Source: Sulfurovum sp.
GTDB lineage: Bacteria > Campylobacterota > Campylobacteria > Campylobacterales > Sulfurovaceae
Reading direction: 5' to 3'
Length of the DNA stretch: 36,443 bases
NCBI GenBank assembly: GCA_027045015.1
Contig: JALUBF010000011.1
Span: 1-36,443 of the forward strand
The position numbers and the translations under genes were made by a program. The notes under the pieces were generated by a model. That model was given only the letters and a program-made list of their open reading frames with translations. It was not told the DNA's origin and ran no database searches. Shown here piece after piece: positions 3,953 through 19,888 of the stretch (the stretch's first letter is position 1; every line of letters begins with the position of its first letter).

Positions 3953-5041
3953 TTAACACACCTCCATATTGTAAACTTCCAACGTTTTTTCAATCATATT
4001 ATTAAGCGAAAAATTATTTTCTATATAACTGTACCCATCAAATCTAAGATTTTTAGCATCTTCTATCTTCTGAGATAGTTCTTTACTAGAACCAACACTA
4101 TAAAAATAACCATTTTTACCATCTATAACTATATCTAAAACACCACCATGATTGGTAGCTATAACTGGTCTATTCATCGCTATAGCCTCGGCTACACTTC
4201 TTCCAAAACTTTCAGGTTTTTTAGAACTGCTTACCACAACATCACTCAAAGCATATATCTGTTCTACTCTACTTTGTGAACCAGTAAAAGTTATATATTT
4301 TTGTAGATTTAACTTCTCTATCTTCTCTTTAAGTAGATTAAAATAGCCCTCTTTATCTTCTCTAACACCACCTACTATAAGCCCTAAAACATTTGGTATT
4401 CTATTTTTCACTAAAGATATAGCATTTATAAATGTCTCTAAATCTTTTAATTGTGTTATCCTGCCAACTGATGTTACAATATATCTATCTTCTAACTCAT
4501 ATCTTTCTTTAAACTCATCTATAAATTTTATATCTATATTATTTGGATTAAATATATCCAAATCCACCCCTCTTGGGATAACTTCTATCTTATCTTTATC
4601 TACATCATAATGCTTTTTTATATAAGATTCAACAGCACTACTAACGCAAATAACTCTATCTCCTTTAGTCATAATAGCACTATATGTACTCACACTGTTA
4701 AATCCATGAACTGTAGTTACAAAAGGTAATCCTAACTTCTTATTTGCCCAGTAAGTTAGCCATGCAGGGACACGAGAACGTGCATGAAGTATATCTGGTT
4801 TCAATTCTCTTAAAATTTTTCTCAACCTAAGCATACGAAGTGGTGCAGTAAAAGAATTTTTAGAACATATATCTAATGTGATATGCTCTGCTCCATCTGC
4901 TTCTATCTGAGAGACTAACTTTCCCCCTGAACTTATAACTATACTTTTATGCCCTAGCTTAACAAGTTCACGACTTAACTCCATAGTACCACGCTCTACT
5001 CCACCCTCATTAAGCTCTGGTAGCAGTTGTACTATTTTCAT
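3953..5041 (-). CDS. Glycosyltransferase family 4, LPS-core type
   Basis: A 362-aa GT-B enzyme of the WaaG/RfaG-like branch. Visible features are GGVERGTMEL at residues 13-22, the acceptor-domain HARSRVPAW and VTTVHG segments, the linker VIPRGVDLDIFNP, the donor-domain start VTSVGRITQLKD, and the EX7E motif PESFGRSVAEA followed by PVIATNHGG. This set is typical of transferases that add a hexose to the LPS inner core. It overlaps the ELM1-family gene by four bases and ends one base before the SGNH gene; its last codons carry that gene's ribosome binding site. The exact sugar is unknown. Confidence 0.9.
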   Translation of the reverse strand: MKIVQLLPELNEGGVERGTMELSRELVKLGHKSIVISSGGKLVSQIEADGAEHITLDICSKNSFTAPLRMLRLRKILRELKPDILHARSRVPAWLTYWANKKLGLPFVTTVHGFNSVSTYSAIMTKGDRVICVSSAVESYIKKHYDVDKDKIEVIPRGVDLDIFNPNNIDIKFIDEFKERYELEDRYIVTSVGRITQLKDLETFINAISLVKNRIPNVLGLIVGGVREDKEGYFNLLKEKIEKLNLQKYITFTGSQSRVEQIYALSDVVVSSSKKPESFGRSVAEAIAMNRPVIATNHGGVLDIVIDGKNGYFYSVGSSKELSQKIEDAKNLRFDGYSYIENNFSLNNMIEKTLEVYNMEVC

Positions 5042-5925
5042 AGAGTAACTCCTTTAAGATATTTTCTAAAATCTATTTTACTATTTTTACTTTCAATTTT
5101 ATCATTATAGATATGCACATATCCATCTTTTTGTAAATCTTCTATAAAATGTTCAAATTTATTATCTTTTTTACTATCTAATGGCAATATAACTACATCT
5201 GATTTACCATAAGATATAGCCTCAGATATCATAGACGTGCTATCTCCTGTGATAAAGACTACTTCACACTGCTCTAAAAAATCAGATATTGGATTTACTC
5301 TATTTTTTGAAAATATTACCTCATATTCAAAATGATATGACTCAACCAAGCTCTCTATCTCTTTAGATGTTCGAGGAGAGGTGGTAATAGCTATATCATA
5401 CCCATCATAATAGCCAACTATAAAATCAAGTTGAGATTTTAATCTCTCTTTTGATATAGTAAAAATACTATTATCCCCACCTACAATAATGGCTATGGAT
5501 TTTCTATTTGATAGATATATCCCTTTTGGTTCAACATAAGCAAAATTGGCAGGTATCTCTATAATATTTTTATATTTTGGTGCATTATCATGACTTTGAG
5601 AAAATATATAATCAAAATCATATCTATATCCACGAGGCAACATCATCACAATAGACTTGGCTCTCATATCTTTAGCTAAAGTTTTTACTGCATAGTATGT
5701 TGTTGAGCCACTACCAACTACTACATTGTAACTCTTTTTAACATCTGCTATAAAAACTCTTTTAGATAAAATATTACACCTATCCAACAGATATGTAATA
5801 GACTTTAAAAATCTACTTTTAAATCTAACCTCAACTATATCATACTCATAACCTAGATACTTTGCTAAAGCTATTGACTGGTTTAGATGACCTAAACGCC
5901 CATCACTTAGTATCAATATTCTCAT
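5038..5925 (-). CDS. ELM1/GtrOC1-family putative glycosyltransferase (mitochondrial-fission ELM1-like)
   Basis: A 295-aa protein that matches the ELM1-like family (formerly DUF1022): N-terminal ILSDGRLGHLNQS, VVGSGSTTYY, IIVGGDNSIF, TTSPRTSKEIES and FITGDSTSMISEA. The family looks like a GT-B glycosyltransferase and was named after a plant mitochondrial fission protein; in bacteria it often sits in LPS gene clusters. Here it overlaps lpxL upstream and a GT4 gene downstream by four bases each, so it is an integral operon member. I infer a sugar-transfer step on lipid A/inner core. Family is fairly certain from motifs; the reaction is not. Confidence 0.82.
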   Translation of the reverse strand: MRILILSDGRLGHLNQSIALAKYLGYEYDIVEVRFKSRFLKSITYLLDRCNILSKRVFIADVKKSYNVVVGSGSTTYYAVKTLAKDMRAKSIVMMLPRGYRYDFDYIFSQSHDNAPKYKNIIEIPANFAYVEPKGIYLSNRKSIAIIVGGDNSIFTISKERLKSQLDFIVGYYDGYDIAITTSPRTSKEIESLVESYHFEYEVIFSKNRVNPISDFLEQCEVVFITGDSTSMISEAISYGKSDVVILPLDSKKDNKFEHFIEDLQKDGYVHIYNDKIESKNSKIDFRKYLKGVTL

Positions 5926-6815
5926 TTTTTATATATCTCAGGGTAGTATAGTTTCCATCTTCTATGTTGCCAAAACCAATCTTCTGGCTTCTTTCTAATC
6001 TGCTCTTCTAAAATATCTGAAAGATTTTGAGATAGTTTTTGAACCTCTTGTTCTGTCATATTTGGCTTAACTTCTATTGGCTCTAAAAAAACCAATCTAT
6101 GTTTTTCAAATCCATCTCTTATACTAAATATAGGAACTATAACAGCACCTAATTTAGATGCCAAGCGTACAGGAGAATCTACTTGAGATGCTCTATGTCC
6201 AAAAAAATTAACATCAACACCTTGCTTTGGATTGATACTCTGATCTATAGTCAATGCTATTGTTCTACTATTTTTCAATGATTTAACTATACACTTAGCT
6301 GCACCATCTTTTTCACACATCTGCAAATTTTGTCTATCTCTTGCTTTGGTAAAGATATCATTTATATATCTGTTATTTAGCTTTCTACTTATAATGGTCA
6401 AAGGATTATAATATGTTGCAAAAAATGGTAAAGATAACTCCCAACATCCATAATGTCCCGAAACTGTTATAATCTTTTTATTCTCTTCTAAAAGTTTTAA
6501 AATTATCTCTTCATTCTCTACACAATGGATCTTCTTTTTCATACTATCCAAAGGGGCTTTTTGAAGAACTATAAACTCATATAAATTATAAGCCATATTT
6601 ATCAAGGAACTCTTAATAATATCTCTCTTTTCATCTTCTGTTTTGCTATCACCAAATGCCAAATCTAAATTTGCTTTAGCTATCTTATAGTGTTTTTTAT
6701 CTAAAACATACCCTAAATAAGCCATAAAATGCAATATATTTTTCATAAAAACTCTTGGTAAAAAACGAAATAGAAATTCAAAAAATTTGTAAATTAAATA
6801 TATAATATAATCCAA
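5922..6815 (-). CDS. lpxL: Lipid A biosynthesis acyltransferase (LpxL/HtrB family)
   Basis: A 297-aa member of the lysophospholipid/lipid A acyltransferase family. The catalytic HX4(D/E) motif is HYGCWE (H121, E126), and RASQVDSP and the C-terminal WFWQHRRWK are family hallmarks. It adds a secondary acyl chain to lipid A at the inner membrane, held by an N-terminal hydrophobic segment (FFEFLFRFLPRVF). The start is TTG at 6815, supported by GAGGAG five bases upstream. It heads the operon, overlapping the ELM1-family gene by four bases. Which LpxL/LpxM-type chain it adds cannot be told; in Campylobacter relatives it is called htrB or waaM. Confidence 0.88.
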   Translation of the reverse strand: MDYIIYLIYKFFEFLFRFLPRVFMKNILHFMAYLGYVLDKKHYKIAKANLDLAFGDSKTEDEKRDIIKSSLINMAYNLYEFIVLQKAPLDSMKKKIHCVENEEIILKLLEENKKIITVSGHYGCWELSLPFFATYYNPLTIISRKLNNRYINDIFTKARDRQNLQMCEKDGAAKCIVKSLKNSRTIALTIDQSINPKQGVDVNFFGHRASQVDSPVRLASKLGAVIVPIFSIRDGFEKHRLVFLEPIEVKPNMTEQEVQKLSQNLSDILEEQIRKKPEDWFWQHRRWKLYYPEIYKK

Positions 6816-6842
6816 AAATACTCCTCTTGTACAATTAACTAT

Positions 6843-6848
6843 ATTTTA
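6843..6848 (-). promoter_or_regulatory. Candidate -10 box of the lpxL/glycan operon
   Basis: On the minus strand TTTTAGATAAAATATAG contains TAAAAT about 28 bases upstream of the TTG start. No recognisable -35 box is seen, as is usual for this phylum. It is the only plausible promoter for the whole minus-strand glycan operon in the 108-base divergent gap. Confidence 0.4.
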
Positions 6849-6890
6849 TCTAAAACGCATAAAGATTTATATCTTTTTAAATTAATTGGC

Positions 6891-6896
6891 TATAAT
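6891..6896 (+). promoter_or_regulatory. Promoter -10 box upstream of hisH
   Basis: A perfect TATAAT in the context TTGGCTATAATCACAC, 27 bases before the hisH GTG and preceded by T/A-rich runs. The same TATAATCACA string recurs upstream of the leuA leader, supporting it as the local promoter consensus. Confidence 0.65.
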
Positions 6897-6923
6897 CACA
6901 CTAATTTACATAAGGAAATCAAC

Positions 6924-7535
6924 GTGATTGGAATCGTCGATTATAATATGGGTAACTTAGCATCTGTTATAAATGCATTTAAAAAAGTTGGTGCTGATAC
7001 TAGGCTAGAGAGTAATCCTGAAAAACTTGCAAACTACGATAAGCTTATCTTACCAGGAGTTGGTGCTTTTGGTGATGCTATGGAGCATCTAAAAAGTAAT
7101 GGAATGGATAGTGCCATCAAAGAGTATGCAAAGAGTGGAAAACCTCTTTTGGGCATCTGTCTTGGAATGCAACTTCTTTTTGAGAGTTCTCAAGAGTTTG
7201 GTGCAACTGAAGGTTTAGGACTCATAGAAGGTAAAGTAGTAGCGTTTGATAAGTCAAAGTTTGACCATAAACTAAAAGTTCCTCATATGGGTTGGAATGA
7301 ACTTTTTAAACAAAAAGATGTCAAACTTTTTGAAGGATTGGAAGAAGAGTTTTATCTCTATTTTGTCCACTCTTTTCATGCAGTATGTGATGACAAATAT
7401 GCCATAGGAAAAACATATTATGGCTATGAATTTGTAAGTGCTGTAAATAAAGATAACATCTACGGCATACAACCACACCCAGAAAAGAGTCATAAAAATG
7501 GCTTAAAAATCATAGAGAATTTTGTAAATCTATAG
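6924..7535 (+). CDS. hisH: Imidazole glycerol phosphate synthase, glutamine amidotransferase subunit
   Basis: A 203-aa class I glutamine amidotransferase. The oxyanion segment PGVGAFGDA, the nucleophile in GICLGMQ (C79) and the His/Glu pair in QPHPEKS (H185, E187) complete the triad. It supplies ammonia to HisF for making IGP and AICAR in histidine biosynthesis; hisF is not in this window. The start is GTG at 6924 with AAGGAAA seven bases upstream. It is the first gene of the plus-strand run and is followed, after 16 bases, by an unrelated ATPase gene rather than hisA. The Pro in QPHPEKS replaces the more common Phe or Tyr (QFHPEKS) but lies beside, not on, a catalytic residue. Confidence 0.95.
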   Translation: MIGIVDYNMGNLASVINAFKKVGADTRLESNPEKLANYDKLILPGVGAFGDAMEHLKSNGMDSAIKEYAKSGKPLLGICLGMQLLFESSQEFGATEGLGLIEGKVVAFDKSKFDHKLKVPHMGWNELFKQKDVKLFEGLEEEFYLYFVHSFHAVCDDKYAIGKTYYGYEFVSAVNKDNIYGIQPHPEKSHKNGLKIIENFVNL

Positions 7536-7551
7536 CCCAAAAGGAAAACCA

Positions 7552-8472
7552 ATGAACGAACATTTCATAAAAAATATAGAGATCAAAAATTTTAAATGTT
7601 TTAAAGACTTCAAGGCAGAGGGCTTTGGTAGAGTTAATCTTATTGGTGGGAAAAATAATGTGGGGAAGACGGCTTTTATGGAGGCTGTTTATATTGTTGC
7701 TGATACTAGAAATAAAAAAGATAAAGATATTCTTGGTACATTTATAACAATAGAAAGCTTTAGGGGAATGCCAAATAAGATTAGTGGTAATGAACTGAAA
7801 ATTATTAATAATAAATATTATAATATAAAGATAAAAACAAATACTTTTGAATTGAAGTCAACATTAAAAAAAGATGAATCTCTTGTTGCTGAAAATACTG
7901 AATTATCTTTTACAAATACTAGTTATAATTTTATTCCTAGTTATATGGTAGATAATAAATTAATAGATAATATTTTTAATAAAATCAAAAAACAAAGAAA
8001 AAGAGATAAACTAAATAAGATTTTAAATGAATTTGATAGTAATATTTTGGAATTTGATATTATAGAAGAAAAACCACAAGTATTTTTAAAGACACTTGAT
8101 ACTTTTCAAAATGTATCAGAGTTAGGGCATGGTTTAAAAAGATATATAGCTATTGTCAGTTCAATTTTAATAAATAAAGATGGTATTTTATTTATAGACG
8201 AAATAGAAAATGGAATCCACTACACAAACCTAGACAAACTATGGGAAATAATCCTGAGTATCTCAAAACAACAAAATGTTCAAGTCTTCGCTACAACCCA
8301 CTCAAAAGAGTCTATAGAGTCTTATGCTAGGGTGGCTAAAAAATTAGAAGATAAAGAGATAATATTTATAGAACTATGTAAAAGAGAAGAAAATATAAAA
8401 GCTTTTGTTTACCCTTATGATTGGTTTATAGATGAGATAGAACAAGAGCATGAGGTACGAGGATGTCTCTAA
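7552..8472 (+). CDS. AAA/ABC-type ATPase, OLD/AriA-like
   Basis: A 306-aa ATPase of the AAA_15/AAA_21 (OLD/RecF-like) type. It opens with IKNFKCFKDF, typical of the family, then Walker A GKNNVGKT (33-40). The middle third (about 70-185) is Lys/Asn-rich and unassigned. LGHGLKR (191-197) occupies the place of the ABC signature, Walker B is ILFIDEIEN (212-220), and the switch His is in ATTHS (H250). It overlaps the TOPRIM-like gene by ten bases, so the two form a unit, as in OLD-family and PARIS (AriA/AriB) defence systems. It sits between hisH and hisA and is more AT-rich than both, suggesting later insertion. Defence function is an inference; the fold is certain. Confidence 0.88.
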   Translation: MNEHFIKNIEIKNFKCFKDFKAEGFGRVNLIGGKNNVGKTAFMEAVYIVADTRNKKDKDILGTFITIESFRGMPNKISGNELKIINNKYYNIKIKTNTFELKSTLKKDESLVAENTELSFTNTSYNFIPSYMVDNKLIDNIFNKIKKQRKRDKLNKILNEFDSNILEFDIIEEKPQVFLKTLDTFQNVSELGHGLKRYIAIVSSILINKDGILFIDEIENGIHYTNLDKLWEIILSISKQQNVQVFATTHSKESIESYARVAKKLEDKEIIFIELCKREENIKAFVYPYDWFIDEIEQEHEVRGCL

Positions 8473-9038
8473 GAATTTTTGTTGAAGGAAATGATGATAA
8501 AAATTTTATCGTTAAACTTTTGAATGATTTGAAAACATATAAAGAGATAGATATTTTAGATAATATAAATTTTAATAACTATATTGAAGTTATGGGAAGT
8601 AAATCTAAACTTTTAGATAAAAATCATATAAAATATAATAGACTTTCTCAAAAAATAGGTTTTGAGATAAAAAAAGCCCTCTTTATCTTTGATAGTGACT
8701 TTGAAGAAGATGATAAAAATTGTAATGGAATGGAAAACTCTAAAAAATGTTTTGATAAATTAATAAAAGAATTAGATTGGAAAATTGAAATAGATGTTTA
8801 TATTTTTGATAAAAATTTAGACTATTTTCTAGTAGAAACCATAAACAAAAAAGAGTGTTATGAACATTTTGATAAATTAGTAGAGTGTTTAGATGTAGAA
8901 AAACTAAAACCAAATAAAAAACCTATAGCCAATTTATACAGAGATTTATACCCTTATCCTCAATTTGATTTTAAAGATGATAGATTTCAACCAGTAAAAG
9001 ATAAATTAATAGACTTATTTAAAGGAATAAAAAAATGA
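8463..9038 (+). CDS. TOPRIM-like protein (DUF3226/DUF4435-like), partner of the ATPase
   Basis: A 191-aa protein with a TOPRIM pattern: beta strand plus catalytic Glu in RIFVEGNDD (E8), then a DxD in [12 protein letters not shown] (D77, D79). This acidic set matches metal-dependent TOPRIM nucleases such as those in OLD, GajA and AriB. The C-terminal half ([13 protein letters not shown] onward) fits DUF3226-type proteins, which are often encoded next to an AAA ATPase. Its start lies inside the end of the ATPase gene and its stop overlaps hisA by four bases, so the pair is translationally wired into the his operon. I infer a nuclease effector controlled by the ATPase. DUF number is by recollection and not certain. 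Confidence 0.75.
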
Positions 9039-9769
9039 CAATACTACCAGCGATTGACCTAAAAGATGGTAAAGCAGTAAGATTAAGCAAAGGCTTAATG
9101 GAGAGTGCAAAGATATATAGTGATGAACCGTGGCAAGTGGCTAAGAGATTTGAAGAGTTAGGGAGCAAATGGGTTCACCTTGTTGACCTAAATGGTGCAT
9201 TTGCAGGAAAGCCTGAAAATTTGGAGCAGATTAGAAAGATACGCAAGAATTGTAATCTAAAACTAGAACTTGGTGGTGGGATAAGAGATGAAGAGACCAT
9301 CAAGATGTACCTAGAGCTTGGAATTGACCGTTTAATTCTTGGTTCTATAGCTGTTAAAGATGCACAATTTGTTAAAGATATGGCAAAAAAGTATCCTATA
9401 GTTGTGGGTATTGATGCTATTGATGGTATGGTAGCTGTTGAGGGTTGGGCCAAGACTTCAGATATGAAGGCTACTGATTTAGCTCGTGCTTTTGCTGACT
9501 GTGGAGTTGAGGCGATTATATGTACAGATGTTGGTCGTGATGGTATGATGACTGGTGTCAATGTTGAGTTTACAAAATCTATTCAAGAGGCTTCTGGTTT
9601 AGAGACTATTGCTAGTGGTGGGCTTAAAGATATGAGAGATATTGATGCTCTACTTGAAGCAGGGATAGATGGAACGATTGTAGGAAAAGCCTTCTATGAA
9701 GGTACACTTGATTTAGAAGAGGCATTTTTAAAAACAAACAATATTGAGGAAATAATCAATGAAAAATAG
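9035..9769 (+). CDS. hisA: ProFAR isomerase (HisA)
   Basis: A 244-aa (beta/alpha)8-barrel enzyme that isomerises ProFAR to PRFAR in histidine biosynthesis. [10 protein letters not shown] carries the first catalytic Asp (D8), VVGIDAIDG the second (about D129), and the phosphate-binding loops are LGGGIRD and IASGGL. The start overlaps the TOPRIM-like gene by four bases with AAGGA upstream inside that gene. It overlaps prmA by eleven bases. The reading frame is intact, so the inserted pair has not destroyed the pathway. Confidence 0.96.
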
Positions 9770-10574
9770 ATATTATGAATTAACTATTGCACTAAATGAT
9801 GATTTTGTAGAGTTCATAGCAGACTTTGTAGCCAATATAGCAAATGATGGTGTAGAGATAGGATATGAGAAGATAATCGTTCGTAGCGAATCTGATTTAA
9901 CTTACGTTAAAGATGCTCTTATATCATTAAGCGATACATTAGATGGCAATATATCTATGAACTATACTATCCAAGAGAAAGAGAATCAAGACTGGATACA
10001 AAAATATAAAGACTCCATAGAGCCTATAGAGGCTGGAAAATTTTATATATTTCCTAGTTGGTATGAACCAAAAGAAAATCTTATAAATATTAAGATTGAC
10101 CCTGCTCTTGCATTTGGTTCAGGGCATCACGCTACAACATTCTCATGCTTAAATGCTGTATCGGAGTATGTAAAGGCTAATGATTTAGTGCTAGATGTTG
10201 GTTGTGGTTCTGGTATCTTGGGACTAGCCTCCAAAAAACTTGGAGCAACTGTAGAGCTGTGCGATACTGACCCTATATCTGTAGATAGCTGTAAACAAAA
10301 CTTTGAACTAAACAATGAGAGTTACGATAAACTCTGGGAAGGTTCTGTAGATAAAGCCAAAGGTAATTACGATGTAGTAATAGCCAATATCATAGCTGAT
10401 GTGCTTCGTTTTATCGCAAAAGATCTAAAAAATGATACAAAAGATGGTGGTTACTTGATACTTTCAGGTATATTAGATAAAAAAGAGGAATTGGTTAAAG
10501 AATCTTTCAAAGATCTTAACTTAGAGAAACGAACATTAAAAGATGAGTGGGTAACACTTGTCTATAAAAAATAG
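9759..10574 (+). CDS. prmA: Ribosomal protein L11 methyltransferase
   Basis: A 271-aa class I SAM-dependent methyltransferase. The diagnostic [14 protein letters not shown] is the PrmA form of the substrate/SAM loop, [11 protein letters not shown] is SAM motif I, and VIANIIADV is the active-site NI segment. An N-terminal ferredoxin-like domain (1 to about 85) recognises L11. It methylates ribosomal protein L11. It begins inside the end of hisA and ends 26 bases before ftsH; the prmA-ftsH arrangement is common in Campylobacterota. Confidence 0.93.
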
Positions 10575-10600
10575 AATAACCATACAGATAAAGGAAATCA

Positions 10601-12565
10601 ATGTCCAATAAAGATAATGATCAAAACAATAATAACAACAATAATTTTTTCAATAACAACCCACTACTTGCATTTGCTATTATATCTATAGTTATTATTA
10701 TGGTATTTAAGGCATTTATAGGAGAAAACGATAGTTTGGGAAATATGATGAATATGAACCAAAATATATCACAAACAAAATCAGTGAAATACTCTGAACT
10801 TAAAAAGAAAATAGAAAGTGGTGATATATCTTCAGTAAAACTAGCACAAAATACAATAGAAGCTATCTCAACGAGTAATGGAAAGAAAATAAGATATATA
10901 GCAGAAAATATACCTACTTACGATAAAGAACTTGTTCCTCTACTAGAGAAAAAAGGCATTAGCTATGAGGGTGTTATGGGTGGTGGCTTAGTTAGCGAAC
11001 TTATAAGCTCTATATTGCCAATCCTTCTCTTCTTTGGTATCTGGATATTTTTAGCTCGAAAAATGAGCAAAGGAATGGGTGGTGGCATTTTGGGTGCTGG
11101 TAAAGCCGATAAACTTATCAACTCTGAAAAACCAGATACTAAATTTTCTGATGTTCAAGGGGTAGAAGAGGCAAAAGATGAAGTTAAAGAGATAGTTGAT
11201 TTTCTTAAATTTCCAGAACGATATATGGAACTTGGAGCAAAGATACCAAAAGGGCTACTTTTAGTAGGACCTCCTGGTACAGGTAAGACACTTTTAGCAA
11301 AAGCTGTTGCTGGTGAAGCATCTGTTCCTTTCTTCTCTGTAAGTGGTTCAGGATTTATAGAGATGTTTGTAGGTGTTGGAGCTAGTCGTGTACGTGATCT
11401 ATTTGCTCAAGCAAAAAAAGAAGCACCTGCTATCATTTTTATTGATGAGATAGATGCTATTGGTAAAAGTAGAGCAAGTGGTGGTCAGATGGGTGGAAAT
11501 GATGAGCGTGAACAGACTCTAAACCAACTTCTTGCAGAGATGGACGGATTTGGTACAAATACCCCAGTCATAGTCCTTGCTGCAACAAACAGACCAGAGA
11601 CACTAGATGCTGCCCTACTTCGTGCAGGACGTTTTGACCGACAAGTTCTTGTAGATAAGCCTGATTATGATGGTCGTTTAGCCATCTTAAAAGTACACTC
11701 AAAAGATGTTAAGCTATCTAAAGAGGTAAATCTAAAAATTGTTGCGAAACAGACTGCTGGACTAGCTGGTGCTGACTTAGCAAATATTATTAACGAGGCA
11801 GCTTTGCTTGCAGGAAGACAAGATAAAAAAGAGATAGAACAAGCTGATCTACTTGAGTCTATAGAACGTTCATTTGTAGGACTAGAGAAGAAAAACCGTA
11901 AGATAAATGAAATAGAAAAAAGAATAGTTGCATACCATGAGAGTGGTCATGCTCTTATGGCTGAGCTTAGTAAAGGTGCAACAAGAGTTACGAAAGTATC
12001 CATCATACCTCGTGGTTTAGGAGCATTAGGTTACACACTTCACCTACCAGAAGATGAAGAGCGTTTCTTAAAACAAAAACATGAACTTATGGCTGAAGTA
12101 GATGTACTTCTTGGTGGTCGTGCATCTGAAGAGGTGTTTATAGGTGAAATATCAACGGGAGCTGGTAATGACCTCGATAGAGCTACTGCCATACTAAAAG
12201 ATATGATATCTGTATATGGTATGACTGATGTAGCTGGACTTATGGTACTTTCACGCTCTACAAACTCATTTTTAGGTGGTGGAGCAGTTAGTACAGACTA
12301 TAGTGAAAAGATGGCTGAAGAGATGGATAACTTTATCCGTTCTACACTAAATGAGCGTTACAACTATGTAAAAGGTACTCTCAAAGAGTACTCTAAAGCT
12401 ATTGAAAATATGGCTTCTGTACTTTTAGAGGTAGAAGTTATAGAGGGGAAACAGGTACGTTCTATTATCGAAGATTATGAAAAAGAGAACCATATGCCAA
12501 GTCGTCTAGCTCACCAAGAACAGATAGCAAAAGCTGAACAAGAAGATGAAAAAGAGGAGGAGTAA
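10601..12565 (+). CDS. ftsH: ATP-dependent zinc metalloprotease FtsH
   Basis: A 654-aa membrane AAA+ protease that degrades misfolded and regulatory membrane and cytosolic proteins. Two transmembrane helices (about 21-38 and 132-151) flank a periplasmic domain. Walker A is GPPGTGKT (222-229), Walker B IIFIDE (277-282), the second region of homology follows in ATNRPETLD, and the zinc site is HESGH (445-449) with a third ligand in GNDLDRAT (D523). The extreme N-terminus is asparagine-rich (runs of N within residues 6-19), unusual but probably harmless. AAGGAAA precedes the ATG. The last codon and stop fall inside a stem-loop that may end transcription. Confidence 0.97.
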
Positions 12566-15901: not shown

Positions 15902-16279
15902 ATGGATTTAAATATAGGCGCATTAACAACTCAAGGAGATCAACTTCTTAATGATTTTACTAAAAAAATGGGACTTAATGGTGCAGTAATTGCAACAGCA
16001 GAAGGTCTAGAGATGGCAAGTCATTTCAACTCAGATCAAGAAGCAGATGCTATTGCAGCAGATATGGCAGCACTACTTTCAGTAATGACTAATGGATTAC
16101 TTATAAATACAGAAGTTGGAGCACTTAAAGAGATGATCATCTCTGCTGAAAATGGTTCTCTTGCCATTAGAGATCTTGGTGAAGATATTGCTTTAGGTGT
16201 TAGTGCACCAGAGGGATACAAAATGGGTGGATTGACTATCGCATTGAAAAAATTTGCAGAAGAATTAAAAGCACTCTAA
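15902..16279 (+). CDS. Roadblock/LC7 domain protein
   Basis: The track starts at 15848, but the ATG at 15902 follows AAAGGAG ten bases upstream and starts at MDLNIGALTT, with the earlier residues showing no conservation-like pattern; I use 15902 (125 aa). The protein spans one Roadblock/LC7 domain: helix (QGDQLLNDFTKK), strands GAVIATAEG and LEMASHF, the Ala-rich helix EADAIAADMAALLS, three strands (EMIISAE, SLAIRDLG, IALGVSAPEG) and a C-terminal helix. Roadblock proteins such as MglB dimerise and usually regulate small GTPases, but no GTPase gene is nearby. It leads a five-gene operon ending in a hybrid histidine kinase, and a hairpin after it suggests it is made in excess. Confidence 0.88.
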   Translation: MDLNIGALTTQGDQLLNDFTKKMGLNGAVIATAEGLEMASHFNSDQEADAIAADMAALLSVMTNGLLINTEVGALKEMIISAENGSLAIRDLGEDIALGVSAPEGYKMGGLTIALKKFAEELKAL

Positions 16280-16294
16280 TTAAAAAGCTGATTA

Positions 16295-16324
16295 TTAGAC
16301 AATAACTCATTGTTGTCTAATTTT
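16295..16324 (+). terminator. Intra-operon terminator after the Roadblock gene
   Basis: TTAGACAATAA pairs with TTGTTGTCTAA (11 bp, one G-U) around a CTCA loop and is followed by TTTT. It lies between the Roadblock gene and the 69-aa gene, so it probably acts as a partial terminator lowering downstream expression. Confidence 0.7.
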
Positions 16325-16375
16325 AAAAAACTTTATTTTATATTTTAGATTCGTATTTCATAAGGAGAAACCCAC

Positions 16376-16585
16376 ATGGGAGGGAAAACAACAATGGCAC
16401 AAAATGCAATAGCAGAAGCAGAAACAGCACTAAACGCAATGAAAAGTGGAGACATAGATGCAGCAGAGTTCTACAAACAACTTATGGCAGTTCTAGCAAA
16501 TATAGAAGTAACCAATGAAGATCTTCAAGGCGTTACTCCACAATTACTTTCATTTGTGAATGCTCTTATACGTAATTTAAAATAA
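16376..16585 (+). CDS. Small hypothetical protein, helical
   Basis: A 69-aa protein I do not recognise. It has AGGAG eight bases before the ATG; a second in-frame ATG at 16394 follows GGGAGG and would give a 63-aa form starting MAQNAIAEAE. It looks all-helical, with an acidic, Ala-rich first half (AIAEAETALNAMKSGD) and a hydrophobic C-terminal helix (TPQLLSFVNALIRNLK). No signal peptide, membrane segment or DNA-binding motif is evident. Its place between a Roadblock protein and two Roadblock-fold-like proteins suggests a binding partner or adaptor for them; that is inference from position only. Confidence 0.7.
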   Translation: MGGKTTMAQNAIAEAETALNAMKSGDIDAAEFYKQLMAVLANIEVTNEDLQGVTPQLLSFVNALIRNLK

Positions 16586-16607
16586 ATTTTTAAATTACCA
16601 CTAGACT

Positions 16608-16629
16608 ATAGGGACTATATAGTCCCTAT
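16608..16629. repeat. Perfect 22-bp palindrome between operon genes 2 and 3
   Basis: ATAGGGACTAT joined to ATAGTCCCTAT is a perfect 22-bp palindrome. As RNA it would give a 9-bp stem with an ATAT loop. It is followed by CATAAGATTTTG, not a proper U-run, so it is either a weak terminator, an RNA-processing site or a dimeric-regulator operator. Confidence 0.75.
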
Positions 16630-16706
16630 CATAAGATTTTGTGTATATATTTTATATTTAGATTAAATCTTATTTAACGATATATCTTAAAAAGGAAGGA
16701 TTAGGT

Positions 16707-17036
16707 ATGCATAGAAAATCTCAACAAAATTTAGATAAATTATTTGAACTTGTAAAAAATATTGATGGTGTCACGGCTTTATATAATATAAATATAGAAG
16801 ATACAAAAATACAGCATAATATACTTAGTAAAACTCACAATCAAGAATCTTTTGTACAATATATAAAAAAGATATTTCCTATATGCAAAGAAGATAAATT
16901 TGAAATCATCGTAGTCGATTTAGAAGAACGTATCATTTGTAAAAAAGTTGATAGTACAAACATAATTGTATCTGTCTCAGATAAAAAAATACCATTAGGT
17001 AAGATACTTACACTACTTAAAAGTATTGATTTTTAA
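16707..17036 (+). CDS. Small protein with Roadblock-like predicted topology
   Basis: A 109-aa protein without a recognised family. AAGGAAGGA precedes the ATG. Reading hydrophobicity by eye gives helix (QQNLDKLFELVKNI), strand (GVTALYNINIE), a short second strand, helix (ESFVQYIKKIFPI), three strands (FEIIVVDLEE, RIICKKVDS, NIIVSVSDK) and a final helix (LGKILTLLKSI). That order, alpha-beta-beta-alpha-beta-beta-beta-alpha, is the Roadblock/LC7 fold of the operon's first gene. I infer a divergent paralogue that could heterodimerise with the others. Direct sequence similarity to the first gene is low, so this rests on topology only. Confidence 0.65.
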   Translation: MHRKSQQNLDKLFELVKNIDGVTALYNINIEDTKIQHNILSKTHNQESFVQYIKKIFPICKEDKFEIIVVDLEERIICKKVDSTNIIVSVSDKKIPLGKILTLLKSIDF

Positions 17037-17053
17037 AAAAGGAGAGCCAAATA

Positions 17054-17728
17054 ATGGAAGAAAAAATAGAAATATTTAATAAAAATTACCATCTTACTAC
17101 CGAATATTCTCTAAATAATATCTTGTCTAGTAAAATTTTTTTAGATTCATCTAATGGAAGAATTTTACTTGGAGAAATTCCTACAACTAGTTCAGAACAA
17201 GGAAATAAAGAAGTAACTATGCAAACATTTCATAAAAAAGTTCTATCATCTTTTTTAAGACTTATCTATACATATCGTGAAGAACATAATACTACAGATA
17301 AGATTAAATCATTGGTAGAAGAAAACCTATTGCCCGAAAAAGAAGAGATAAAACAAAAAGAAGAGACAAAACAAATAGTAAGTAATGATGAGCTAACTAG
17401 ATGGCAAGAGTTGTGCCGTAAACATCTACCAAACAATATATTGGCAGTATATAAACAAAAAGGGGAAGCATTACTAAACTACAGCTCTACAGAATATAAT
17501 GATGAAAATGACCAATATTTTATTGACTCGATTCAAGATTATCTAAAAAAAGAGGAACAAAATATTGTACATCTTGTCAATAAGATAAATATATTAACTC
17601 TTACTATTGATTCAAAATACTATTTTGTATATCCTTTAGCTAATGGTATAACACTTTTTATCATAGCTCCTATGGGATCGCTAGGTATGTATATAAAACT
17701 TATTGAATCATTTAAAGATAAATGTTAA
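17054..17728 (+). CDS. Unknown N-domain plus Roadblock-like C-domain
   Basis: A 224-aa protein preceded by AAGGAG. Residues 1-90 form an unrecognised domain (IFLDSSNGRILLGEIP; FHKKVLSSFLRLIYTY). A charged linker rich in Glu/Lys (about 91-113) follows. Residues 114-224 again read as helix (LTRWQELCRKHL), strand (NILAVYKQKG), strand (EALLNYSS), helix (YFIDSIQDYLKK), three strands (INILTLTIDS, KYYFVYPLAN, ITLFIIAPMG) and helix (LGMYIKLIESFK), i.e. Roadblock topology. It is followed closely by the hybrid kinase, so it may be the input subunit for that kinase. Function is inferred from fold and neighbours. Confidence 0.65.
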   Translation: MEEKIEIFNKNYHLTTEYSLNNILSSKIFLDSSNGRILLGEIPTTSSEQGNKEVTMQTFHKKVLSSFLRLIYTYREEHNTTDKIKSLVEENLLPEKEEIKQKEETKQIVSNDELTRWQELCRKHLPNNILAVYKQKGEALLNYSSTEYNDENDQYFIDSIQDYLKKEEQNIVHLVNKINILTLTIDSKYYFVYPLANGITLFIIAPMGSLGMYIKLIESFKDKC

Positions 17729-17756
17729 CCCATTAAAATATATAGTAGGAATAATT

Positions 17757-19259
17757 ATGATTAATCAAAACAATGAACTAGTTAAAGCCAATCAATTTTT
17801 CTCATCAGTCATTCATGATATACGAACTCCCATGAATGCAGTTATGGGGTTTTTAGAACTTCTTGAAGATGATGCAAAACCAAAACAAAAAGAGTATATA
17901 CAAGCTGCATATAAAAGTAGCGAGATGGTTGTAGCGTTAATAAATGATGTACTAGATATGAATAAAATATCTATGGGGAAAATAGAGATAAATAATCATT
18001 TTTTTTCACTATTGGAGGTTATGGAAAATACTGCACTACTTTTTTATCATAATGCTCTACAAAAAGATATAGATTTTATAATATATTATGACCCTCATAT
18101 ACCTTATCTCATAAAATCAGACCCTTTTAGAATTAAACAAGTTTTAAATAACCTATTGAGTAATGCTATCAAATTTACAGATGTTGGTGGTATGGTTGCT
18201 CTTGAGTTTCTATATGAAGCGACAACTGATACATTGATATGTAAAGTATCTGATACAGGCATAGGAATATCTCAAAAAAATCAAAAAGATATTTTTAAAC
18301 CTTTTACACAGGCAAGTATTGAAACATCGGGTAAATATGGAGGTACAGGTCTAGGACTAACTATATCTAAACAACTAGCCCTACTTCTTGGAGGGGATCT
18401 ATATATCCAAAGTGAAGAGAATAAGGGGTCTACATTTAGTATAGAAATTCCTTGTAATTCCATAGATAATACAGGTATATCTATAGATATAGATAACTAT
18501 GAATTACCAATGATTTATGTTATTGATGGAGAGTTATCTAAACATAGATATATAGAGTACTTTACAAAATATTTTAAAGCACTATATATCCCTTATGAGA
18601 TAATTACTTCAGAAGATGCAATAAAACATACAAATAAAAAAGAAAATATCTATGTTGCTATGAAACTTGACTATACTACTAATAAATGTAAAAAATTTAT
18701 AGAATCTATAGATGAACGTTTAATTATTCTTGAGACAGATGTCTTTTCTGATGTATCTAAGTTTTCACAAGATATTACGGTGTTGGAAATGCCTATATTA
18801 CCACAAGCACTATTTAATGCATTTAAAAAACTTACTAAAGGTTATAGCAATAATGAAGATAAAAAAGAGTCTAACAGTAGCATAAAAACTATAGATAAAA
18901 ATATACTTATAGCTGATGATAATCCAATTAACTTAAGACTAATGTCAGAGATAGTAAATAAATTTGGATGTAGATATACATTAGCTAAAAATGGACAAGA
19001 AGCTGTAGATATCTTTAAAGATGAAGATAATATCTTTGATATTATCCTAATTGATCAAAATATGCCAATATTAACAGGAACAGATGCTATAAAAATTATT
19101 CGTTCTTTACCAAAAGGAAAAAATATATATATTTATGGTCTTACAGGAGATAGCGATGAAAATACAAATCAAGATATGAAAGAAGCTGGAGCAAATGCTA
19201 TACTACATAAACCTATCAAGATACAAGAGTTAAAAGATATTATCTATAGTGAAGTTTAG
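17757..19259 (+). CDS. Soluble hybrid histidine kinase with receiver domain
   Basis: The track's TTG start at 17703 overlaps the previous gene; the ATG at 17757 has AGGA six bases upstream and lies after it, so I use 17757 (500 aa). Domains: HisKA with VIHDIRTPMNA (phospho-accepting H20), HATPase with N-box NNLLSNAIKF (about 131-140), G1 DTGIGI (166) and G2 GTGLGL (196-201); a degenerate receiver-like segment (about 251-362) starting MIYVIDGE; then a full receiver with ADDNPIN (acidic pair 387/388), phospho-accepting D433 in LIDQNMP and K485 in LHKPIK. It has no membrane segment and no PAS/GAF sensor, so input must come from partner proteins, probably the Roadblock-like proteins encoded upstream. 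An output regulator is not in the window. Confidence 0.93.
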   Translation: MINQNNELVKANQFFSSVIHDIRTPMNAVMGFLELLEDDAKPKQKEYIQAAYKSSEMVVALINDVLDMNKISMGKIEINNHFFSLLEVMENTALLFYHNALQKDIDFIIYYDPHIPYLIKSDPFRIKQVLNNLLSNAIKFTDVGGMVALEFLYEATTDTLICKVSDTGIGISQKNQKDIFKPFTQASIETSGKYGGTGLGLTISKQLALLLGGDLYIQSEENKGSTFSIEIPCNSIDNTGISIDIDNYELPMIYVIDGELSKHRYIEYFTKYFKALYIPYEIITSEDAIKHTNKKENIYVAMKLDYTTNKCKKFIESIDERLIILETDVFSDVSKFSQDITVLEMPILPQALFNAFKKLTKGYSNNEDKKESNSSIKTIDKNILIADDNPINLRLMSEIVNKFGCRYTLAKNGQEAVDIFKDEDNIFDIILIDQNMPILTGTDAIKIIRSLPKGKNIYIYGLTGDSDENTNQDMKEAGANAILHKPIKIQELKDIIYSEV

Positions 19260-19268
19260 ATGGAGAGA

Positions 19269-19655
19269 TTATATTTCCAATAAATTCAAACCTTTTATAC
19301 GTTCAAAATGCCTTTTATTGAGCGTTACAAGAGAAATATCTTCACTTATAGCAGATGAAGCAATCAAAATATCTCTAAACTCTATTAGACTATTTCTCTG
19401 TTTTAGGTCTTGATAAATTTCAGAGGCAATATAGGCTTGATTTTTATCAAATACTAAGACTTCTATATTCTCAAAAAGAAGTTTATCAAACTCTTTATTT
19501 TTAGAACCTGACATATATTCAAAGTAACAAATAGCCGAAGTTATCAAACTATAACCCTCTTTTGTTAAACGATAAAGCATACTTTTTTGTTTATTCTCTT
19601 TTCTAAAATACTCTATAAAAATAGAAGTATCTATTAAAATTCTTCTATTTTCCAA
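19269..19655 (-). CDS. PIN-domain (VapC-type) toxin
   Basis: A 128-aa PIN-domain ribonuclease. The acidic residues expected for metal binding are D9 in ILIDTSIF, E46 in CYFEYMSG and D95 in EFRDILIASSA, with TLNKRHF (111-117) completing the site. Such toxins cleave RNA, often tRNA or rRNA, when not bound by their antitoxin. It overlaps the upstream antitoxin gene by 22 bases, the standard layout. It converges on the hybrid kinase with a nine-base gap and no clear terminator. Confidence 0.88.
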   Translation of the reverse strand: MENRRILIDTSIFIEYFRKENKQKSMLYRLTKEGYSLITSAICYFEYMSGSKNKEFDKLLFENIEVLVFDKNQAYIASEIYQDLKQRNSLIEFRDILIASSAISEDISLVTLNKRHFERIKGLNLLEI

Positions 19656-19888
19656 GATTTATACCCACTATTAATATTTTTCTCCCACTCTTTTGCCTCT
19701 TCATCTGAAATAGTAGGCCCATTTTCCAATAAAACTAAAAAATTATTTTCTACAATATTAGGTTTATGATTTGATATATCTATCTTTTGATGATGAAAAA
19801 TCTCTCTTTTATTTTTAGGAATATTTTGCAAAAAATTAAGAATTTGCTCAAGGTAGCTATCATCAACATTTATGGTTAAGGTTTGCAT
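19634..19888 (-). CDS. Antitoxin partner of the PIN-domain toxin
   Basis: An 84-aa protein directly upstream of and overlapping the PIN gene. The N-terminus TLTINVDDSYLEQILNFLQNIP reads as a beta strand plus helix, like antitoxins of the ribbon-helix-helix/Phd-like small class, and the C-terminal half is acidic and Trp-rich (EEAKEWEKN, GYKSWKIEEF), fitting a toxin-wrapping tail. AGGAG seven bases before the ATG and a minus-strand TATAAT at 19916-19921 give it a strong start. Function is inferred from position and length. Confidence 0.78.
   Translation of the reverse strand: MQTLTINVDDSYLEQILNFLQNIPKNKREIFHHQKIDISNHKPNIVENNFLVLLENGPTISDEEAKEWEKNINSGYKSWKIEEF

Follow-up and report, generated by a model that had tools for sequence, protein, structure and literature searches.

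Proteins of the Roadblock-type scaffold family normally serve small GTPases. A five-gene operon of Sulfurovum sp. raises the question of what such a protein does when a histidine kinase, and no GTPase, is encoded beside it. The operon lies at positions 15902-19259 of a 36,443-nucleotide stretch (assembly GCA_027045015.1, contig JALUBF010000011.1), the whole of which is called the window here. It consists of five open reading frames (ORFs) on the plus strand, all intact, and a purine-rich ribosome-binding site, as read from the sequence, precedes each of the five starts. In order, the genes encode an MglB-like Roadblock/LC7 protein (g1), a small protein (g2), a remote Roadblock-fold protein as judged from a predicted structure (g3), a protein whose C-terminal half is probably Roadblock-like (g4), and a soluble hybrid histidine kinase (g5). 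There is no GTPase gene in the operon or among the ORFs surrounding it. The five genes form a real, conserved and apparently undescribed module; literature searches found no description of it. The reading preferred here, held at about even confidence, is that of a GTPase-independent Roadblock platform docked on the hybrid kinase, the whole acting as a two-component module.

The initial annotation took these genes for a distinct signalling module, and their order is indeed conserved in relatives. The full g1-g2-g3-g4-g5 order is present in nine genomes, that is, in the window and at loci L012, L013, L014, L016, L018, L081, L082, and L083. It is intact as far as the contig end at L015, which ends inside the kinase gene, and at L084, which ends after g3. 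The recurrence of the five-gene order well exceeds chance. g1 was found in fifteen genomes besides that of the window, and it is present in 10 of the 78 genomes of the genus, a patchy distribution. Eight of the 249 genomes of the order have a match to PF03259 and all eight carry the module; thus, the Roadblock gene was not found outside the module in those 249 genomes. Scanning a genome collection with one of the proteins gave a match at L012 only, and searches of a viral collection with g3 and of plasmids with g1 gave no match.

The most conserved member is g1 (15902..16279, plus strand; 125 aa). It was annotated as a clear Roadblock/LC7 protein, and it passes the curated Pfam cut-off for Robl_LC7 (PF03259) with an E-value of 1.8e-8 and 34.4 bits against a threshold of 23. 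Its identity to nine relatives is 36-76%, with a mean column identity of 65%. g2 (16376..16585, plus strand; 69 aa) is helical by sequence prediction and has no family match. It adjoins g1 in all 15 loci whose contig permits the check, and among 397 genomes of the phylum its strong homologs are confined to those bearing the module. By these searches, g2 is a new small family. The identity to L012 is 76% for g1 and 87% for g2, and in the relatives compared both are conserved far above the level of g3 and g4. A Roadblock-like nature of g2 was considered and rejected, as its hhalign score is no better than that of column shuffles. Weak Pfam matches of g2 and g4, below the cut-off and seen in one or two members each, were dismissed. 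Tandem duplication of g2 is observed at L017 (9384-9814) and L019 (9468-9881).

Genes 2 to 4 have no curated family match in Pfam, NCBIfam, PADLOC or PHROGs, so that g3 and g4 do lack a recognisable family, as first noted. The further proposal that both share the Roadblock fold held for g3; for g4, profile comparisons lend it moderate support, and for the C-terminal half only. For g3 (16707..17036, plus strand; 109 aa), an AlphaFold2 model built from two sequences, those of the window and L012, has a mean predicted local distance difference test score (pLDDT) of 74.6 and the element order a-b-b-a-b-b-b-a. Its best Foldseek matches are Asgard archaeal Roadblock3 (9jue), Ragulator LAMTOR chains, and MglB, with a probability of 1.00 and a template modelling score (TM-score) of at most 0.71. 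Independently of the model, the g3 profile has Roadblock3 as its sole match in the PDB (E=0.012). The hhalign score of g3 to g1 is 28.1, against 19.0 for the best of 150 column shuffles, and the g3 protein of L083 is matched by the g1 profile with E=6.9e-5 in a small sequence set. g3 falls below the Pfam cut-off for Roadblock/LC7. On the predicted structure and the profiles, g3 is a remote Roadblock fold and a member of the Roadblock/LC7 superfamily.

In g4 (17054..17728, plus strand; 224 aa), residues 115-224 align by hhalign with residues 14-123 of g1, which cover the whole Roadblock domain, at a score of 28.7 against 18.4 for the best of 150 shuffles. A rerun with more sequences gave 23.3 to g1 (17.1 when shuffled) and 28.9 to g3 (16.8). 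Control comparisons with kinase domains gave 8.6 and 13.0 for g4, nothing comparable, and 18.1 for g3 against the receiver. The assignment of the C-terminal ~110 aa as a remote Roadblock-like domain is moderately supported by these profiles; the N-terminal ~110 aa have no assignment. In the metagenome contig of L012, the g4 gene carries a frameshift close to the N-terminal end. At the same locus, the kinase gene is followed by an additional gene (9926-10279) that matches LAMTOR5 weakly (E=0.028) and possibly encodes a further Roadblock-like protein; its homolog is absent from the other loci compared.

g5 (17757..19259, plus strand; 500 aa) carries HisKA, HATPase_c and an intact receiver on a single chain (Pfam PF00512, PF02518, and PF00072), and is thus a hybrid histidine kinase. 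By eye, it keeps the H, N, and G boxes and the receiver Asp, Thr, and Lys, and a degenerate receiver-like stretch lies between HATPase_c and the intact receiver. No PAS or GAF domain was detected in it with Pfam, and no membrane segment is visible in its sequence. The description of a sensorless soluble kinase is therefore correct for the window copy, but it does not define the module, as most sisters carry an N-terminal GAF-type domain. In most relatives, the operon kinase, where complete, is 643-660 aa long, and its N-terminal domain of ~150 aa contains a conserved motif, DNP(F/L/M). The N-termini of six of the operon kinases align (P=5e-14) with that of a kinase homolog at L064, in which GAF_2 scores above the Pfam cut-off (E=3.8e-7). 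This domain is missing from the window kinase and from those of L019 and L020 (511-521 aa). Because it is present in most sisters and absent from these, the sensorless form appears to be derived and to have arisen in two lineages, the window copy having lost its GAF domain. In the tree, the window and L012 kinases, which are 61% identical, form a pair (support 100/99), and the operon kinases form a cluster (82/81) that excludes the other hybrid kinases encoded in these genomes.

The absence of a GTPase had been stated for the operon, and the search was extended to whole genomes. By the criterion used for MglA-MglB pairs, an MglA-type small GTPase should be encoded no more than four genes away from the Roadblock gene; there is none within four genes of g1 among the ORFs around the operon. 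In the window genome (G000), PF00025 and PF08477 revealed no single-domain small GTPase: every match to them falls in a frame 450-837 aa long, as would suit MnmE, Der, and IF-2. Likewise, none was detected in two near-complete genomes bearing the module, G041 (100% complete) and G112 (99%), or in the less complete G202 and G232. In these four genomes, no matching frame is shorter than about 300 aa, a length consistent with Era. A PF08477 search of the L012 genome gave long-frame matches only, and in G079 a Roc-like domain is located within a 663-aa frame. The statement thus stands for the operon and for what was detected in the window genome, but it is not general, as will be seen from other relatives.

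The closest known systems are the actinobacterial conservons (AGPS), which comprise a CvnA kinase, a CvnB Roadblock protein, a CvnC protein with a domain of unknown function (DUF), a CvnD GTPase and, optionally, the GAF-type CvnF. In both, one operon combines a histidine kinase with a Roadblock protein of the MglB type and a small uncharacterised protein, and both show loss of the kinase sensory domain as well as GAF input. Unlike conservons, the present module has no CvnD-type GTPase gene, its genes 2 to 4 have no CvnC family match in Pfam or NCBIfam, and its kinase is a soluble hybrid with a receiver, whereas the conservon kinase is a membrane protein. It also has two extra remote Roadblock-like proteins, belongs to a different phylum, and includes two families (g2 and g4) absent from every library searched. 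It belongs to the kinase-Roadblock kind of system, within which the missing GTPase, the two remote Roadblock-like proteins and the new small family set it apart. The best precedent for the proposed mechanism is CvnF8, an accessory protein of the GAF type in conservons, which binds its cognate sensorless kinase CvnA8 and stimulates it (PMC13343842).

From the genes, the physical contacts, stoichiometry, signalling direction and output of a GTPase-independent platform can be inferred as follows. g1, the MglB-like Roadblock protein, would presumably form a homodimer and, with g2, make up a core that is conserved and probably more abundant than the other parts. g3 and the C-terminal half of g4, as fast-evolving Roadblock-like domains, would be expected to pair with g1 or with each other. 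As adaptors, they would dock the hybrid kinase and couple the state of the platform to autophosphorylation. The ancestral kinase may also have received a cytosolic signal via its own GAF domain; the window kinase, having none, would have only the accessory proteins to rely on. From the intact receiver, the output signal would pass to an unlinked Hpt protein. Hpt domains are present in all nine genomes searched for them. The stronger statement that three different Roadblock-fold subunits and a helical partner directly regulate, or are regulated by, a histidine kinase without any GTPase is put forward tentatively, at somewhat short of even confidence. If it is true, the complex represents a new class in bacterial signalling, and the Roadblock fold can act as a GTPase-free adaptor in two-component signalling.

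Several observations weigh against this reading. The fold of g4 has no structural model, as AlphaFold2 with a two-sequence alignment gave a pLDDT of 37 and the model was discarded. In the L017 variant, the order is g1-g2-g2'-g3-g4 and the kinase homolog is elsewhere, at L064. In the L019 and L020 variants, g3 is absent and the kinase gene is convergent; tight coupling to the kinase is thus not universal. g3 is also absent from L085. This locus (5032-11224) has tandem g1 copies, g2 and a related kinase; between g2 and the kinase, the g3-g4 positions are taken by a GAF protein and by a protein of 560 aa without a family. The replacement itself favours the platform reading, as it is expected if these positions are slots for interchangeable input or adaptor components. 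The window genome is 86% complete, and seven genus-mates bearing the module (G008, G023, G262, G014, G527, G530, and G539) have unlinked single-domain GTPases of the Ras/Roc type. One such GTPase was tested against Pfam and matched PF00071 with E=4e-24.

The last of these observations would suit an ordinary GTPase-Roadblock system whose Rup/Ras-type GTPase is encoded elsewhere in the genome. This is considered unlikely, since no single-domain GTPase was detected in the near-complete G041 and G112, in the less complete G000, G202, and G232, or, with PF08477, in the genome of L012. Moreover, in all three genomes examined, the single-domain GTPases occupy a cluster of their own with an OmpA-domain protein and a likely GGDEF protein. 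They resemble the Rup family, and a survey of 1,611 prokaryote genomes recorded no Rup GTPase coupled to MglB (PMC4316618). Given their presence in seven genus-mates and their apparent absence from near-complete genomes, a GTPase acting in trans appears feasible in some lineages and not required across the module. The clusters themselves lie at L030 3751-8827, L031 4438-8079, and L032 3572-7121; by eye, an N-terminal stretch of their OmpA-domain protein looks Roadblock-like.

The operon is not tightly packed, as two of its gaps contain hairpins; it is rather an operon with internal RNA elements. The g1-g2 gap (16280..16375, plus strand; 96 bp) contains an AT-rich hairpin, TTAGACAATAA..TTGTTGTCTAA, and, after it, a T-rich stretch. 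The hairpin is weak in the window (z=-1.2), and relatives show no consistent signal. The g2-g3 gap (16586..16706, plus strand; 121 bp) contains a 9-bp GC-containing hairpin, TATAGGGAC..GTCCCTATA, and each of the seven five-gene loci that were folded has a predicted hairpin in this gap. It is strong at L012 (z=-3.6), L013 (-9.3), L014 (-7.1), L016 (-3.1), and L018 (-3.9), and modest in the window (-1.4) and L015 (-1.6). It has no Rfam family. A terminator scan found no consensus terminator in either gap, and for this reason the hairpins are regarded only as candidates for attenuation or processing elements. The g2-g3 hairpin is a candidate for an element splitting g1-g2 from g3-g5. In five of the seven five-gene loci, the GC content of both g1 and g2 is above that of g3-g5. 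Together with the hairpin and the higher conservation of g1 and g2, this suggests that g1-g2 may be produced in excess of g3-g5.

The same features are consistent with the opposite direction of signalling, in which input comes from the kinase and the Roadblock proteins act as its output, so that an abundant g1-g2 assembly, serving as a polarity determinant or scaffold, is set by kinase signalling. The far better conservation of g1 and g2 than of g3 and g4, their higher GC content in most five-gene loci, the hairpin setting them apart, and the kinase that may be unlinked (L017) or convergent (L019 and L020) all agree with it. The authors of the conservon work propose CvnB or CvnC as the phosphorylation target, a direction that runs parallel. 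However, the kinase has its own receiver and a normal phosphorelay output is already available. As a whole, this alternative is regarded as possible though rather doubtful. As to direction itself, a kinase acting on the platform would fit the genomic data about as well as a platform regulating the kinase, the latter being close to the initial annotation's proposal of Roadblock heteromers as sensor or scaffold of the kinase.

The GTPase-independent platform can also be set beside other Roadblock systems. The MglA/MglB polarity systems (with MglC and RomR) share the MglB-type Roadblock protein and a link to a response regulator. MglB and MglC are known to cooperate, and the module likewise has more than one Roadblock protein. 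It is unlike them in having no MglA-family GTPase within four genes and none detected in several of the genomes that bear it. In a 2014 survey, 328 of 749 MglB homologs were orphans, none of them then characterised (PMC4316618). g1 falls into this orphan class, in which the Roadblock protein is uncoupled from a GTPase, and differs by its conserved five-gene context with a kinase. The module thus names likely partners for an orphan Roadblock protein: the hybrid kinase, the small protein of the new family, and the two remote Roadblock-like proteins. As near-complete genomes carry it with no detectable single-domain GTPase, it offers a clean setting for the question of GTPase-free Roadblock function. 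Roadblock3 of Asgard archaea and the LAMTOR subunits of Ragulator are nearest to the g3 model, a likeness of fold only. Several Roadblock-fold subunits and a helical protein in one set recall Ragulator; unlike it, the module has no Rag GTPase.

The window copy might instead be a decaying or lineage-specific remnant drifting beside a toxin-antitoxin pair. A PIN-domain toxin gene with its likely antitoxin gene lies directly downstream of the operon, on the minus strand (19269-19888), the serS flank is variable in the genus, and the kinase has no GAF domain, unlike that of the closest sister L012. Against decay, the ORFs are intact, the kinase motifs are kept by eye, the starts have ribosome-binding sites, and identity to L012 is still 76% (g1) and 87% (g2). 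Such a remnant is considered very improbable.

The history of the locus may differ from that of its genome. The window alaS is 80-83% identical to those of G003, G023, G013, G008, and G015, against 78% to that of the L012 genome; unlike alaS, the operon genes are nearest to those of L012 (76% for g1, 61% for the kinase). The side of serS that bears the operon is a variable slot within the genus. This discordance and the variable slot fit horizontal transfer or repeated loss. In another part of the window (7552-9038), two genes, one for an AAA ATPase (AbiLi-like, PADLOC E=1.7e-55) and one DUF3226-like, lie between the apparent hisH and hisA; they are probably an inserted defence-type pair.

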